From positions 21,897 through 85,896 of the forward strand of contig VXMO01000057.1 in assembly GCA_009841045.1 (NCBI GenBank): a stretch of DNA of 64,000 bases, read 5' to 3'. The DNA is from Dehalococcoidia bacterium (GTDB taxonomy: Bacteria > Chloroflexota > Dehalococcoidia > UBA6926). Positions 13,247 to 21,572 of this stretch are shown piece by piece. Each line of letters starts with the position of its first letter. Within the stretch, counting starts at the first letter, position 1. The position numbers were made by a program, and so were the translations under genes. Under the pieces are notes generated by a model that was not told the origin of the DNA, searched no databases, and saw only the letters and a program-made list of their open reading frames with translations.

Positions 13247-13945
13247 ATGAAGCTTGAAGGACGGCGTGTCATTGTGACCGGGGGCAGCCGGGGGATCGGT
13301 TTCCGAATCAGTGAACTCTTTCTCGCTGAGGGCGCTCACGTTCTGGCCGTGTCGCGTAGTTCCGCAAAGCTTGAAGGGGCAAAGGCAGAACTTCCTTCGC
13401 TCTCCACTCTGGTTGCCGACGTGTCCGTTGCATCGGATGTTGACCGCATTGTCTCCTGGACTGAGAACGAGTGGGGTTCGCTCGACATCCTCGTGAACAA
13501 CGCCGGCATTTTCGACAATAGCGAGCCGGGCCTCACCGAGGAGCCGGACGACAATTTCCTAATGACGCTGCAGGTCAACGTTCACGGGGCGTATTTCTGC
13601 ACGAAGCGTCTGCTTCCATTGCTGCTCCAGTCGGACGATCCATACATCGTCAACGTTGGCTCGGATTCCGGGATCATGGGACCTGAAATGAAAGGGGCTT
13701 ATGGCGTGTCAAAGGCCGCTCTACACGCGCTCACGCTGGCTACTGCCAACGAATTGAAGGGCAAGGTGACGGTCAACGCGCTTGACCCAGGGTGGGTCAG
13801 GACGGACATGTCGCCGAATGGACCGGGAGACCCGAGGTGGTCGGCTGCGGGCGCGCTCTCGATAGTTACAAGGCCAGACAAGGTGACGGGCAGGCTGTTC
13901 AACGGCAAGCGCCTCCGTTCGTGGATGCCGCGCTCGGCCTCATAG
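13247..13945 (+). CDS. SDR-family oxidoreductase
   Basis: VIVTGGSRGIGFRISELF, LVNNAG, YGVSKAALHALT. Confidence 0.95.
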   Translation: MKLEGRRVIVTGGSRGIGFRISELFLAEGAHVLAVSRSSAKLEGAKAELPSLSTLVADVSVASDVDRIVSWTENEWGSLDILVNNAGIFDNSEPGLTEEPDDNFLMTLQVNVHGAYFCTKRLLPLLLQSDDPYIVNVGSDSGIMGPEMKGAYGVSKAALHALTLATANELKGKVTVNALDPGWVRTDMSPNGPGDPRWSAAGALSIVTRPDKVTGRLFNGKRLRSWMPRSAS

Positions 13946-14423: not shown

Positions 14424-15833
14424 GTGCATCCGGCTAACACCGGGGTAAGGCGCATTGCCATTGTGGGGGCGGGTATCTCCGGGCTGGGCGCGGCATGGGG
14501 ATTGAGTCACCACCCTGACAAGTTCGACTTCAGAGTCTTTGAAGCGCGCGGCGAGATTGGCGGCAATGCCGTAACGGTGGATATGCCGCAGGATGACGGC
14601 AGTTCCGTGCCATTCGACATCTCCGTCACGGCCCTCATCCCGTCCGTTTACCAGCATGTGCTTCTCCTGATGCAGAAATTCGGCATTGACATGCTGGAGA
14701 CACGCTTCAGTTACAGCGTGAGGTACGGGGAGGGCATCTACGCGCACGACTTCGATTCTGATTTGAGACAGGAGCTCGCCAAAGACATCGCGAAGTTTCA
14801 GAGGCTGCTTCGTCATCTCCACCGTTTCGGGCGGTTGACCCGGGCGCGCTCCCGGCTCCTCAATGCGCTGAACCCGTACAACTACATCAGCATGGGCCGA
14901 GTGCTCAAGCTGGGCAGGTTCTCCGATGATTTCAAATACAAGATTCTCAAGCCGATGTTCGTCAATTTCCTGATGGCAACGGACGTGTTTGCCATGCCAG
15001 CGTCTCTCTTTGCCCGGTATCTTGAATTCTTCGATATCGAGAGGGCGACGACCATGCAGACCTGGGACCAGGGAACGCGCCGCATCTACGAGAATCTGTC
15101 CCTTGAGTTCCGCGACAAGATTTATCTGAATCGCCCTGTCCGAAAGGTGTATCGCCAGGCCGCTGGGGTTGTCATTGAGGACGAGAACGGCGTTCGGGAA
15201 GAGTTCGACGACGTGATTCTCGCCTGCAATGCGAATCAATCACTGGCGTTGCTCGACGATCCAACACGCCTTGAGCGGTACATCCTCTCGTCGATTCGCT
15301 ACGATACGGAGCTTCACCACAATGCCGTGGTCCACGCGGATTCCTCGGTGCTGCCGGACGATGCAATGAAGGCGCTGGATACGCGGAGCAACTACGTCGA
15401 GCAGTACGGCGAGAAACCGGACAATTACCAGATCACGTACATCATGCATAACCAGCAGCCGTGGGCACACGGTTCCGACAAACCCCTCCTCGTTACCTAC
15501 AACGCCGTACGCCCCATTGATAAAGACAAGATCGTCAAGGAGATGTCGTTCCAGCACATCATTCATGACGTGCGGCATATTGCCGTACTTGTTCAACTTT
15601 TCCGTTTCATCCAGGGCAAGAGGCGAACATGGCACTGCGGCGCGCACACGCTCGTCAACAGCCAGGAAACATGCTTTATCACGGGGCTTGCCGCTGCGCG
15701 CCAGCTGGGCGCCGACTATCCGTTCGACGATGAAGAGGCGAGGCAGGTGTTCAATTACTACGGAAGCATCATGTACGGCCGCCGGTTCAGAAAGGTCAGG
15801 CGCGGGGAGAGACGCGTTACACACAGCATCTAG
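14424..15833 (+). CDS. FAD-dependent oxidoreductase (amine-oxidase-like)
   Basis: IAIVGAGISGLGAAWGLS...FEARGEIGGNA; whole length resembles the predicted NAD/FAD-binding family. GTG start 2 nt after the previous stop. Confidence 0.88.
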   Translation: MHPANTGVRRIAIVGAGISGLGAAWGLSHHPDKFDFRVFEARGEIGGNAVTVDMPQDDGSSVPFDISVTALIPSVYQHVLLLMQKFGIDMLETRFSYSVRYGEGIYAHDFDSDLRQELAKDIAKFQRLLRHLHRFGRLTRARSRLLNALNPYNYISMGRVLKLGRFSDDFKYKILKPMFVNFLMATDVFAMPASLFARYLEFFDIERATTMQTWDQGTRRIYENLSLEFRDKIYLNRPVRKVYRQAAGVVIEDENGVREEFDDVILACNANQSLALLDDPTRLERYILSSIRYDTELHHNAVVHADSSVLPDDAMKALDTRSNYVEQYGEKPDNYQITYIMHNQQPWAHGSDKPLLVTYNAVRPIDKDKIVKEMSFQHIIHDVRHIAVLVQLFRFIQGKRRTWHCGAHTLVNSQETCFITGLAAARQLGADYPFDDEEARQVFNYYGSIMYGRRFRKVRRGERRVTHSI

Positions 15834-15923: not shown

Positions 15924-17948
15924 ATGACAGTTTCTGCTGAAAGCGCGGCGACACAAACCCTCAGCCTGCCGGAAGAACTCATTCTGATTCTCCTCAATGA
16001 GGAGGACGGCTACTTTCACCAGGTGCCCGGCTGGAACCTGAACTGCGTGGTCATTGGCGCGGCTCTTGCGGAACTTTCTCTCCGGGGTCGCGTAGATACC
16101 GACATTGAGTCGCTCATCCTCGTCGACAAGACGGATACGGGCGACATTGCCCTCGATACCGTGCTTGATGAACTTGCCTCCGAAACTGAGCAGCGAAGCA
16201 CGACATATTGGATTGAGCGCCTCGCTCCGCTTGCAGAAACCATCATTGATGACACGCTTGCCCGTCTGGTGCGCATAGGTATCCTCCAACACCATGACGG
16301 CGATTTCTGGACGATGGCCCGCACATCGCGTGGCGTCGAATTTGGCGGCGGCGAGTGGAGAGACACGGCGGCCGAGTTCGTCAGGAACCGAATCGTCAGG
16401 GTCATTTTCAGCAATGAGATCCCTGAGCCGAGGGACATTATCCTCATCTGCCTCGTCAACACGTGTGACGTGTTTCGCTTCATCTTCCCCATTGAAGAGG
16501 AGGAGGAAGAGCGGATAGCGCAGATCTCCAGGATGGACGTCATTGGGCGATCTATCGCGGAGGCCGTTTCCCAGAACCTTGCCGGCCCTCTGTTGCGCCG
16601 TTCGGGGCTGGCCAAGAGGATACCGACCGTTCCGCTTCGGAAGCTGCTGTTCAACAAGCACCTAAGGAGCGGGAACATTCCGGCGTTGTTTGGAGAGCTG
16701 GCTGAGAATTATGGCCCTGTGTTCCAGATTAAACCCCCATTTGTGAAACCGCTGGTGTTCCTGGCGGGGGCCGCCACAAACAGGTGGGCGCATCGACAAG
16801 GGCGCATGTACCTGCGAGCCAGGGACTACTTCCATGGCTTTGAGAAGGAATATGGAGCGGCCGGTGTGCTGCCCTCACTGGACGGCGCGGATCACTTCCG
16901 CTTGCGGAAATCCCTGCAGCCCGCATATTCCCGCACCCGGCTTGAGGGTCAACTAGACAAGGTCTATGACAACGCGCGGGCGTTCATGTCGGACTGGAAA
17001 GTTGGGGACTCCCTGCCGGCAGCAGCAACGTCCCGAATGATGATCAATGCCCAGATTTCGCCACTCTTCGTGGGTGTCGATTCGCAGGATCTCATTGCTG
17101 ATCTTGCGACATACAAGGAACGGGTCCTCAGCGTTCACATCATCAAGGTCATGCCCAAGTTCATGCTGAAGACGCCGGGCATGAGGCGGCGAGCGAAGCT
17201 TGTTGACTTGCTGTTGGAGCGAGTACAGGGTGTGCATACCCCGGCGCAACGGGCGGGACAACCACGTGACCTCGTGGATGATTATCTCAGTCTCCACGTG
17301 AGTGATCCGCAGTTCTTGCCGGAATCCAATCTGCGTTTCGTCTTTACCGTGGCCCTGGTCGCCAGCGTTTATCTCGGCGACATGATGAGCTTCTGCCTCT
17401 ACGCCATGGCAACGAAGCCGGAAATGCATGCAGAGATTCGGCGGGAGGCTGATGCCCTGTTCGCAAACGGCGATCCCAAAGGCGACGACATTACTCCCGA
17501 AACCATCAATATCACCCATCGATTCATCATGGAATGCATGCGGCTCTATCCCATCGTTCCAATGTCGGTCCGCAACGTGATGAATACCTGTGTGGTTGAA
17601 GGATTCGAACTCCCCGTCGGAACGCGCGTGCATGTTGCGCAGAGCGCTGCGCATTACATGGACGAGGTCTTTCCGGAGGCGACCACGTTCGATATAGACC
17701 GCTACCTGCCGCCCCGCAATGAACACCATAGCCCCGGCTACGCGCCGTTCGGTCTGGGCACACACACCTGCCTGGGGAATCGGTGGATGGAGCTGCAGCT
17801 AACGCTCAACTTGCTGATGATTGCGCGCCACTTCACCTTTGATGTCTCCCCGGCGAAGTTCAAGGACAACCTGAAGATCAACGCGCTTCCGTCACTGAAA
17901 CCGCATAAGAAGCTCAAGCTTGTTGTGACGGAGAGACGCGAACTCTAG
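15924..17948 (+). CDS. Fusion of N-terminal GPP34-like domain and C-terminal cytochrome P450
   Basis: N-term LSLPEELILILLNEEDGYF...NCVVIGAALAELSLRGRVDTD...LILVDKTDTGDIALDTVLDELA (GPP34-like); C-term FIMECMRLYP (ExxR), FGLGTHTCLGNRW (heme-Cys loop). One uninterrupted 674-aa frame. Confidence 0.88.
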   Translation: MTVSAESAATQTLSLPEELILILLNEEDGYFHQVPGWNLNCVVIGAALAELSLRGRVDTDIESLILVDKTDTGDIALDTVLDELASETEQRSTTYWIERLAPLAETIIDDTLARLVRIGILQHHDGDFWTMARTSRGVEFGGGEWRDTAAEFVRNRIVRVIFSNEIPEPRDIILICLVNTCDVFRFIFPIEEEEEERIAQISRMDVIGRSIAEAVSQNLAGPLLRRSGLAKRIPTVPLRKLLFNKHLRSGNIPALFGELAENYGPVFQIKPPFVKPLVFLAGAATNRWAHRQGRMYLRARDYFHGFEKEYGAAGVLPSLDGADHFRLRKSLQPAYSRTRLEGQLDKVYDNARAFMSDWKVGDSLPAAATSRMMINAQISPLFVGVDSQDLIADLATYKERVLSVHIIKVMPKFMLKTPGMRRRAKLVDLLLERVQGVHTPAQRAGQPRDLVDDYLSLHVSDPQFLPESNLRFVFTVALVASVYLGDMMSFCLYAMATKPEMHAEIRREADALFANGDPKGDDITPETINITHRFIMECMRLYPIVPMSVRNVMNTCVVEGFELPVGTRVHVAQSAAHYMDEVFPEATTFDIDRYLPPRNEHHSPGYAPFGLGTHTCLGNRWMELQLTLNLLMIARHFTFDVSPAKFKDNLKINALPSLKPHKKLKLVVTERREL

Positions 17949-20419
17949 GCTCCCGCCTCGTGGCGGCGGTGGGTCGCGTCGATTTCCTCATCCAGTTCGT
18001 CCCATATCCTCTCGAGTTGGGAGCGCAGCCTCATATTCTGGAACGATCCCCAAACCACCATGGCGGGAAGCACCAGCACGACTGAGACGATCAGGGAATA
18101 GAGGATCGTGATGGTCGCCGTAATGCCGAACTGCACGGATGCGGTAAGCGGCGCGGCTATAAGCACACCGAATCCCAGCGCCGTGGTCATTGCAGAACCC
18201 AAGAGCGCCGAGCCCGTCGTCGACAAGGTTCGGATCGCCGCCTGTTCCGGGTTCCGCATTTGGGCATATTCCTCCCGATAACGGTGAATGATGTGGATTG
18301 TGTAATCCACGCCGATTCCGATTGATAACGCCGTGATGATGGACGTGATGAGGGAATAGGGGATCCCCAGCAGCCACATGGTGCCCAGCACGCAGATCAG
18401 GACGAATACGATTGGAACCACTGCGATGATGGCAAGCGCGGGCTGCCGCACCGTAATCCAGAAGAAGATTGCCAGGATGGTCAGAGCTACGGCGACCGTT
18501 GTTCCGATCGATTCTGATTGTCCACTTGTGATTTGATTGCCGACCTCCTGGGAGACGATGGCCAACGACGTCACGATGATCTTGTCGTCTTCGCCGAGCC
18601 ATAGACCTTCGAGTTCCGGCTGGAGAGTCCTCAACTGTTTCACGTCTTCGTTGAAGATGGGGAACTGGAGCAGCATCAGGTCCTCACCGTTCGGGTTGTT
18701 GACGAGGAATCCCGAAAGGTCCGGTTCTCTGAGCAGAAGTTGGTCAATGAACTCTTGCATCAGAACGGGATCGAGCTCCACGCCGGGGGACGCTTGCTCA
18801 AAGAGCGCCGCTAATTCCGGATCGTACTTGTCGCCGGGTTGGCCGCTGTCGTGCGTCCAGTCATCGACAAGGTCTTCAAGTGACCTCTGCACCGGGCCTG
18901 CGGCAGCGGCAGGACGCGTCTGCTCGTTCTCAAACGGAGTTGTCAGATCATGAAGATTCAGGAGCGTCCGGCTGTCGGTAGCTTCCGCCCGCACAAGCAG
19001 ACTGGCCAACTCCGTTGAGCCGCCCACAGCCGTGTCGAGCGTTTCCAGGTCCGCCAAAACGGCGCCGTTATTGGGCAGAACGTCACGGACACTGAATTCT
19101 GATTCCAGGTTCGTCGCGAAATATCCTAGGACGGCTGTGACAGCGAGGACGCTAATGATGTATGGAGCGGGCCGCCGTGTGACTTCCCTGCCCATAAACT
19201 CCGCGATTCGCGTGACGCCCGGCAATGCGTTCGAAACGGGGCGCGGCTGTCTCAGGGATCCTCGCGATTCTCGGCGGGCATCGATAATTGTCCGACCGGC
19301 CGGAAGCAATGTCAGCATGACGATGAGGCTCAGTCCGACTCCCAGTCCGGCGACGATGCCAAAGTCGCCAATGACCTCAATCGGCGAGAAGCGTGAAGCA
19401 AACATACCTGCCATCGTTGTGACGGCGGCCAGCGTGAGTGGGATTGTGACGTTCCGCAGCCCGATGCGCACCGCCTGTCTGACAGACTCGCCCTCAAGCC
19501 GCTGCTCCCTGTAGTGCGAGACGGACTGAATCGCATAGTCAACAGTGAGGCTGATGATGATCACGGGAACCAGCGCCGTGAGCGAGCTGGGCGGGCCTAT
19601 AAACCCCAGCGCCGACGGCCCAAGCCATCCCTCCATGCCGACAATCCACGTGATGGAGATGACGAGTCCCGCCAGCGAGAGCAGCATGTCCGCGGGAGAG
19701 CGAGTAAAAACAAGGAGCAGTACGGCGATAAGCACCAACGCCAGCATCATCAGGGGAGCCATCCCCTCTTCAGTCGCCTTCTCGTATTCGGCAACGATGA
19801 TTTCCGGTGAAAGCGATCTGGCGCTTAGTGGGCCTTCAGATTCCATTGCCAGTTCGTTGATTCGCGTCTCGGCGATGAGGACTCTATCGTCCCCGGTATT
19901 AACCAACTGGAAACTACCGACGGCAATCTGGGTCCCGTCCACATCGGTTCCGGTAACCGCGCCGAGGGTCTCGCCGATGCCAGGAGCGTTTCGCACGGAG
20001 TCAATCTGCGCCTGTGTGACAGTCCGCAGATCACTTACTTGCAGAACCGCCTTGAACAGAGAGGAGGGCGCGAAGAGCGGATCCACGGGCGTCAATATAT
20101 CGCCAATATCCGGGTGGCTCGCGATGTCGGCAAGCAGGGCATCCATCTGGACGAGTCCATCCGGCGTAAGCGCTTCCCCGCGGAATATGATGTTGCCGGC
20201 GATAAGCTCGCCCGAATCTCCGAAATGCTGCTCGATATCTTCTGCCGCGTCGCCCAGCGGGTGACCCGGTGGAAGGAAAGCAAGGCTGGCGCCTTCGGTT
20301 GGAGGCTCGCGATACGTCGCGCCGTAGCCCAGCGCAACCGTCAGCACAAGGAGCAAGGCGATGGTAATCCATGGCCGCGCAGTCACAACCCGACTGAAAG
20401 TGCCAATCACCATATTCAT
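17945..20419 (-). CDS. MMPL/RND-superfamily transporter (HAE3-like)
   Basis: 824 aa, two repeats each with large extracytoplasmic loop; SLTVDYAIQSVSHYRE and SIGIGVDYTIHIIHRYREE motifs. Confidence 0.93.
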   Translation of the reverse strand: MNMVIGTFSRVVTARPWITIALLLVLTVALGYGATYREPPTEGASLAFLPPGHPLGDAAEDIEQHFGDSGELIAGNIIFRGEALTPDGLVQMDALLADIASHPDIGDILTPVDPLFAPSSLFKAVLQVSDLRTVTQAQIDSVRNAPGIGETLGAVTGTDVDGTQIAVGSFQLVNTGDDRVLIAETRINELAMESEGPLSARSLSPEIIVAEYEKATEEGMAPLMMLALVLIAVLLLVFTRSPADMLLSLAGLVISITWIVGMEGWLGPSALGFIGPPSSLTALVPVIIISLTVDYAIQSVSHYREQRLEGESVRQAVRIGLRNVTIPLTLAAVTTMAGMFASRFSPIEVIGDFGIVAGLGVGLSLIVMLTLLPAGRTIIDARRESRGSLRQPRPVSNALPGVTRIAEFMGREVTRRPAPYIISVLAVTAVLGYFATNLESEFSVRDVLPNNGAVLADLETLDTAVGGSTELASLLVRAEATDSRTLLNLHDLTTPFENEQTRPAAAAGPVQRSLEDLVDDWTHDSGQPGDKYDPELAALFEQASPGVELDPVLMQEFIDQLLLREPDLSGFLVNNPNGEDLMLLQFPIFNEDVKQLRTLQPELEGLWLGEDDKIIVTSLAIVSQEVGNQITSGQSESIGTTVAVALTILAIFFWITVRQPALAIIAVVPIVFVLICVLGTMWLLGIPYSLITSIITALSIGIGVDYTIHIIHRYREEYAQMRNPEQAAIRTLSTTGSALLGSAMTTALGFGVLIAAPLTASVQFGITATITILYSLIVSVVLVLPAMVVWGSFQNMRLRSQLERIWDELDEEIDATHRRHEAGA

Positions 20420-20453: not shown

Positions 20454-21572
20454 TCAGATGCGTGTGGCCGATTGACTTGCGGCCGGAGTGACTGTCTGCT
20501 GTGCGGCCTCGCTTTCCGTTTCCGCCGATGCAGGTGTTGTTGCCTTCGTATTAGGGTAAAACTGCGCGCAATACCGGCGAAAGGGCATGATGTCCCCGTC
20601 AAGCCTGAACAGGCGCGGCCGTGAGCGGTACTTCTTGCGGTTCCAGATGATGACGTCCTTCTTAACATCTTGTATCTGGTTGGCTGCGATGAACTTGTTC
20701 ATAAGGGGGGCGCGGAACTTCTTCGGCAGGAATCCCAAACCCATCACGAACCGTTTGGGGTTTGTGATTTCCTTAACCTGTGAGAACAGCGTCATCTCTA
20801 TGTTGGTGCCATCGATTGGCGTCGCAAGAACCCATAGCCGCAGATCCATTCCTATGGAGCGCTCGCGGATTTCGACGTATGACACCCCCAAGCCGTACAC
20901 AAACGTCGCCGCGGATATGTCAAAGGTTATGCGTCCCAGTTTCGTGATTGGCTTTGTAGTCTGGAACTCAAACCGGCTCTCAAGTCGATGGCCCTCAATC
21001 ACCAGAGGGGCGGTACGGCTTACGTCGCCAAAACCATGCACGTAATTCAGGTGAGAATAGTCGACGGAGTTCTCGGTTGTTTCCTGCGGATGGCCGGCGA
21101 ATTTGACACTTCTGCGTTCGAGAGAACTCCAGCCTTCATTGTCCTCCGTTTCGTCGGGCATCGGCCATTGCGGAGGGCGCCGGTCGATCCCCCACCATCC
21201 GAAGATCAGGCCCATGCGCTCCTGTGTCTCGAACAGACGCAGCCGGGCGGTTGGAGGGGGATTGGTGTACGGGGTGGAGATGCATTGGCCGGTTGCATCG
21301 TACGCAAACCCGTGAAAGGGGCACACCAGCTGCCCATCAACCACTCGTCCGCCGACCTCAGGTGACAGGTTCGCCCCCAAGTGTGGGCAATGGGCTTCGG
21401 CAACACAGATTTGTCCGTGGTCGTCGATCCAGGCGATGATTTCCTCGCCCATCCACGTTTGGCTGACCAGTTTGGCTTTTTCGATGGCCTGGCGGGTTTC
21501 GATGAAATACCAGCCCTCAGGGAACGGCGGCAGTGGAACATCCTCCAGTTCCGTAAGCTGTGTGGTCGTCAT
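20454..21572 (-). CDS. Rieske non-heme iron oxygenase, KshA/cholesterol 7-desaturase (DAF-36)-like
   Basis: CPHLGANLSPEVGGRVVDGQLVCPFHGFAYD (Rieske), ENSVDYSHLNYVHGFG (mononuclear iron), C-term VIIWNRKKYRSRPRLFRLDGDIMPFRRYCAQFY. Confidence 0.88.
   Translation of the reverse strand: MTTTQLTELEDVPLPPFPEGWYFIETRQAIEKAKLVSQTWMGEEIIAWIDDHGQICVAEAHCPHLGANLSPEVGGRVVDGQLVCPFHGFAYDATGQCISTPYTNPPPTARLRLFETQERMGLIFGWWGIDRRPPQWPMPDETEDNEGWSSLERRSVKFAGHPQETTENSVDYSHLNYVHGFGDVSRTAPLVIEGHRLESRFEFQTTKPITKLGRITFDISAATFVYGLGVSYVEIRERSIGMDLRLWVLATPIDGTNIEMTLFSQVKEITNPKRFVMGLGFLPKKFRAPLMNKFIAANQIQDVKKDVIIWNRKKYRSRPRLFRLDGDIMPFRRYCAQFYPNTKATTPASAETESEAAQQTVTPAASQSATRI

Follow-up and report, generated by a model that had tools for sequence, protein, structure and literature searches.

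Among the unusual sterols of sponges is the 24-isopropyl type, which serves as a very early animal biomarker; which organisms make these unusual sterols is an open question. In eukaryotes, sterol P450s carry an N-terminal transmembrane anchor. It was not until 2023 that bacterial sterol methyltransferases were demonstrated, from sponge symbionts and other uncultured bacteria, and three of them make 24-isopropyl side chains (Brown et al. 2023, PMC10070321); steroid gene clusters occur in Ircinia symbionts over 11 classes (PMC9531527). GOLPH3, a GPP34 protein, binds PI4P via W81, R90, R171, and R174 and inserts a hairpin (residues 190-201) in the membrane (PMC13408441). We found no described role for bacterial GPP34 in the literature, and no paper that we found (subscription journals and preprints lay outside our coverage) describes a GPP34-P450 fusion, in agreement with the preliminary description of this DNA, which was aware of no example.

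We analyzed a 64,000-nucleotide stretch of a Dehalococcoidia genome (the window), which lies on contig C34 of a 1.95-Mb, 63-contig assembly (G000). On the forward strand, a single open frame running from an ATG at 15924 to a TAG at 17948 encodes a 674-residue GPP34-cytochrome P450 fusion. The GPP34/GOLPH3-like domain spans residues 15-216 (15966..16571) and scores 109.7 bits against PF05719, where the Pfam cut-off is 29.1; the P450 domain spans residues 248-652 (16665..17879) and scores 130 bits against PF00067 (cut-off 22.8). The ExxR motif (E537-C-M-R540; 17532..17543) and the heme-thiolate loop (F609-GLGTHTC616LG; 17748..17777) are both present, and E537, R540, and C616 are invariant in 60/60 aligned members. 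An AlphaFold model of the whole fusion, built with a 60-row homologue alignment, gave a mean pLDDT of 83.3 and a pTM of 0.70, and the GPP34 part modeled alone reached a pLDDT of 83.9. Foldseek matched the P450 part to P450s at a target-normalized TM of ~0.8, with CYP184A1, P450 BM3, and Methylococcus CYP51 among the top matches, and a profile search with this domain returned CYP51 first, with the sterol P450s CYP46A1 and CYP90B1 among the matches. The architecture read from the sequence in the preliminary description, a 674-residue frame with an N-terminal GPP34 domain and a P450 with ExxR and heme loop, is thus borne out by Pfam, the alignment, and the predicted folds; the degenerate helix I and the surrounding sterol module reported below were not part of it. 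We consider it probable that the protein acts on sterols as a heme-thiolate enzyme, docked on the membrane by its GPP34 domain and working with the sterol module.

In Foldseek, the GPP34 part matched GOLPH3 (9qpq, 3kn1) and Vps74 with a probability of 1.00, and nothing else fell below E 0.001, the next fold standing at E 0.4. The PI4P site is not conserved. In a profile alignment, W81, R90, R171, and R174 of GOLPH3 align with P35, I44, E105, and I108 of the fusion, and across the 60 members these positions are dominated by P, V/I, E/D, and I/V. W37 lies two residues off the W81 position, so a shifted tryptophan may have been retained, but none of the three arginines remains. Since the PI4P-binding basic residues are absent, we rejected the proposal that the domain tethers the P450 to an inositol lipid. 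The wider suggestion of a lipid link fared better and is well supported by gene context, with a sterol as the lipid.

In the region corresponding to the GOLPH3 membrane hairpin, the fusion has a tight H-H-D-G-D-F-W turn, modeled with strands at 121-124 and 128-131 (residues 121-131; 16284..16316, forward strand). Within its H124-x-G126-x-F128-W129 pattern, H124 and G126 are found in 60/60 members, F128 in 59/60, and W129 in 56/60. The retained fold and the conserved turn, which may itself enter the membrane, make tethering plausible. The domain would most simply place the enzyme at the membrane, as the N-terminal anchor does in eukaryotic sterol P450s. The main rival is partner-enzyme docking, in which GPP34 would be an adaptor that gathers the Rieske protein, FAD enzyme, methyltransferase, or transporter into one complex rather than a membrane anchor. 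It draws on the negatively charged groove with which GOLPH3 recognizes the basic tails of client enzymes (PMC13408441), on the loss of the PI4P residues from a fold that is kept, and on the joint travel of the module genes. The F-W turn conserved in the hairpin region, however, accords with membrane contact, and we regard the adaptor as unlikely, if worth serious attention. A stand-alone GPP34 gene, ~40% identical to the fused domain, is also present in the window's genome (L001:1456-2106, on G000:C5) and in sister species, including one (G001) that is without the fusion.

Three module genes neighbor the fusion in the window. An FAD-dependent amine-oxidase-like protein (NAD_binding_8/Amino_oxidase; nearest solved structure LkcE) is encoded upstream on the same strand (14424..15833). 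On the opposite strand lie a convergent RND/MMPL transporter of the HAE3 type with similarity to sterol-sensing domains (17945..20419) and a Rieske oxygenase with a KshA_C catalytic domain (20454..21572). Across 49 fusion loci with at least 9 kb of flank on each side, the Rieske gene recurs in 44, the FAD gene in 41, the RND gene in 32, and a methyltransferase-like gene in 21; five other neighbors of the window's fusion recur in 0-2 of the same 49. Order and orientation vary, from FAD-fusion-RND-Rieske in the window to a Rieske gene divergent from the fusion (L005/L097) and fusion-FAD-Rieske in Acidimicrobiia. In the window's genome the methyltransferase is on another contig (G000:C28). A short-chain dehydrogenase beside the module (13247-13945) possibly belongs to the same pathway, as its N-terminus is near-identical to that of L182:1466-2164, which is close to the sterol-methyltransferase gene on G000:C28.

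We examined co-occurrence in one draw of 393 genomes from a single class, covering 225 genera. Sterol_MT_C was found in 37 of the 38 fusion genomes and in 2 of the 355 others (39 in total; Fisher p ~2e-48, relatedness ignored). Because Fisher values ignore relatedness, the safer statement is made at genus level, where the fusion and the sterol methyltransferase are confined to an identical set of 10 genera out of 225. The exceptions are G058, with a fusion and no methyltransferase, and G221 and G328, with a methyltransferase and no fusion, the latter two both in carrier genera. The KshA_C Rieske domain is distributed similarly (35/38 versus 6/355; 41 in total). Five of the six KshA_C genomes without a fusion fall in one family (f17), and their Rieske genes probably form a different group, since in four of the five KshA_C scores 138-149 bits, far above the ~67-98 of the module proteins. 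An ERG4/ERG24-like reductase was present in 9/9 carrier genomes tested. The near-exact co-occurrence of fusion and sterol methyltransferase suggests that the fusion takes part in the synthesis or alteration of unusual sponge sterols.

Some carriers also have the genes for de novo synthesis. G024, G127, and G195 hold de novo sterol clusters with a CYP51-like P450 carrying AGQHTS; in G127 (contig C10), the module lies within ~15 kb of a cluster of ERG24, CYP51-like, squalene-epoxidase/oxidosqualene-cyclase, and SMT genes, and in G317 (contig C9) epoxidase, cyclase, fusion, and RND genes are adjacent. The epoxidase and cyclase are separate frames in G317. In one continuous frame of ~1115-1263 residues, they form an apparent bifunctional squalene-to-sterol enzyme at L175:7166-10957 (G024), L176:6229-9576 (G195), and L178:3213-6749 (G127). 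Among the carriers G000, G002, G331, G388, and G321, no match to squalene epoxidase was found and only G002 has a cyclase, and the fusion is the sole P450 in the first four; such absences are soft in genomes ~90-97% complete, and the pattern recurs over independent genomes. As several genomes without a detectable sterol cyclase keep only the fusion, it probably acts there on sponge-derived sterols.

Taken together, the gene context places the fusion in sterol metabolism. We propose that the GOLPH3-like domain would dock the P450 on the bacterial membrane at its cytoplasmic face, the presumed location of the sterol substrate, and that the P450 may act there with the Rieske oxygenase, the FAD oxidoreductase, and, in many loci, the sterol-methyltransferase-like enzyme, while the adjoining RND pump could move substrate or product. 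The most economical reading is sterol modification downstream of, or independent of, de novo synthesis; carriers that lack a cyclase would obtain the substrate from their sponge host.

The module might instead modify another membrane lipid, such as a hopanoid, another polycyclic triterpenoid, or a methyl-branched fatty acid, with the methyltransferase-like gene and the RND pump being features that such pathways would share. The module methyltransferase also matches cyclopropane/mycolic synthase models, and the RND gene resembles HpnN-type hopanoid transporters. In addition, a second, more distant GPP34-P450 subfamily (~33% identical; G461, G580, a two-frame copy in G614, and a frameshifted paralogue, L184) adjoins an acyltransferase-3 gene instead of the sterol module: its copies at L200:1272-4509, L201:8283-11485, and L199:9001-12238 (the last in two frames) each lie directly 5' of a gene from one shared family, recognized as acyltransferase-3 (PF01757) in L200 and L201. 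Against this, Sterol_MT_C scores above its cut-off in the module methyltransferase, the module adjoins de novo sterol genes in two genomes, sterol P450s rank highest in the P450 profile search, and SQHop_cyclase went undetected in four of nine fusion genomes tested, so that hopanoid synthesis was not detected there. We therefore judge a non-sterol lipid improbable. Within the sterol reading, the methyltransferase may still differ in substrate, as its Sterol_MT_C scores are lower (mostly 53-67 bits, versus 73-74 in the de novo clusters of G127 and G195 and up to 89 in other copies). The L184 paralogue (L184:1764-3793, in G204) is broken in two frames, by either pseudogenization or sequencing error.

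The P450 domain departs from its relatives in helix I, where a degenerate motif, A480-S-V-Y-L-G-D486 (17361..17381, forward strand), replaces AGx(D/E)T(T/S). Throughout the 60-member alignment the motif reads A-S-(V/M)-Y-(L/V)-G-D, with A480, Y483, and D486 in 60/60, the serine in 58/60, and the glycine in 59/60. The position of the helix-I Thr holds L, V, or M, with one G, and Thr in 0/60 members; between the invariant anchors A480 and F490, the segment is one residue shorter than in canonical relatives. The family thus lacks the (A/G)Gx(D/E)T oxygen-activation motif, which is usual but not universal in P450s. Helix I is canonical in the second subfamily (AGADTS in G461 and G580, AGLDTT in L184), and the GPP34-P450 architecture therefore comprises a canonical branch and one with a remodeled helix I. 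Neither the AG(Q/H)HT(S/T) motif nor orthology to CYP51 was found, and we rejected CYP51 sterol 14-alpha-demethylase as the identity of the fusion, because the full-pathway genomes have a separate CYP51-like P450, carrying AGQHTS in G024, G127, and G195.

A P450 half that is catalytically dead, serving as a sterol-binding or regulatory module, would accord with the loss of the helix-I motif in 60/60 members and with the one-residue deletion; yet all 60 members retain Cys616 and ExxR, a conservation not required of an inactive enzyme, and we consider this reading very unlikely. The sequence does not predict exactly which reaction is catalyzed by the active, sterol-modifying enzyme that we favor. 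Given a helix I without the usual oxygen-activating residues, the enzyme may run on peroxide, or may rearrange an already oxidized sterol, rather than carry out ordinary monooxygenation. Crystal structures of the P450 BM3 T268V mutant were among the Foldseek matches of the fusion, and it is the peroxide-driven activity that goes with this substitution that raises the peroxygenase or rearrangement reading. Monooxygenase activity persists in some P450s that lack the helix-I Thr, which weakens the step to altered chemistry. In its fullest form, which we find doubtful, the proposal would be that the fusion, without O2 activation, rearranges, dehydrates, or peroxide-oxidizes sterols pre-oxidized by the Rieske partner, helping to build unusual sponge sterols from host sterol at the membrane via the first GPP34 known to localize a bacterial enzyme.

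The window comes from a 63-contig assembly, as might be expected were the fusion two genes falsely joined in assembly or binning, a prospect that the preliminary description had raised for assembly; at least 80 full-length fusion loci from independent projects, one of them on a single-contig genome of 2,609,140 bases (OX638325.1 = G331:C1), refute this and leave its probability negligible. A scan of the collection gave 158 candidate relatives, the best 80 of which each match at least 644 of the 674 residues. A full-length fusion in a sister species is 91% identical (contig JAPOOK010000061, Chloroflexi isolate APA_bin_32), and those in another family of the same class are 53-56% identical. By record title, carriers belong to Chloroflexota/Dehalococcoidia, Acidimicrobiia, Alphaproteobacteria, Nitrospirales, Gemmatimonadetes, Latescibacterota, and Poribacteria. 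Judged from isolate prefixes, the named collections that could be traced come from sponges: APA, COS, RHO, and IRC, assigned from the prefixes alone, fit Aplysina aerophoba, Coscinoderma, Rhopaloeides, and Ircinia of PMC8163846.

A tree of 60 members has the Actinomycetota rows together on one side of a branch (100/99), with the other phyla intermixed. Transfer of the fusion between phyla is possible but not proven, because bins can hold foreign contigs. We rejected a phage origin, having found neither a PHROGs family nor a phage match to GPP34, and plasmid spread, since no plasmid match spans most of the fusion and those listed cover the P450 part only, at <30% identity. Among the shorter matches, we looked for a P450 of the window subfamily without GPP34 and found three candidates: the G231 match runs to a contig end and is without the N-terminus only, that in G242 begins at residue 89, and L184 is a divergent paralogue in which GPP34 is also present. 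Two or three tandem fusion copies in L071, L074, L067, L075, and L055 suggest duplication.

These results highlight a fusion family that flags almost all genomes of its class with a sterol methyltransferase and offers a defined P450 and Rieske pair suited to expression. The fusion ties bacterial GPP34 to a defined lipid enzyme and may represent a membrane-docking device unlike the transmembrane anchor of eukaryotic sterol P450s. GOLPH3 and Vps74 share its fold and the Pfam family (GPP34) for which it scores above cut-off, but these eukaryotic proteins stand alone, unfused to an enzyme, and their PI4P residues are not conserved in it. KshA (3-ketosteroid 9-alpha-hydroxylase) and SdmA (4-methylsterol monooxygenase) are the closest known counterparts of the module Rieske protein, which has a KshA_C domain yet scores only 42 bits against the SdmA equivalog (cut-off 600), and G024 has a separate SdmA-like gene (407 bits). 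Like the sponge-symbiont sterol clusters with SMT in PMC10070321, whose main text mentions neither P450 nor Rieske proteins, fusion carriers almost always have an SMT-like gene. The ERG24-CYP51-LSS-SMT clusters of Ircinia symbionts (PMC9531527) come from a similar set of bacterial classes, and G127 has one of this kind close to its fusion module; the main text of that paper mentions neither GPP34 nor Rieske proteins, and the module also occurs in genomes without a cyclase. The CYP51-ferredoxin of Methylococcus capsulatus (6mcw, 7snm) is likewise a bacterial sterol P450 fused to another domain, and it is the best PDB profile match of the fusion P450 and among its best fold matches. Its partner is a ferredoxin, in contrast to the N-terminal GPP34 here, and its CYP51 has the helix-I motif; the GPP34-P450 can be accompanied in its carriers by a separate CYP51-like P450 with AGQHTS.
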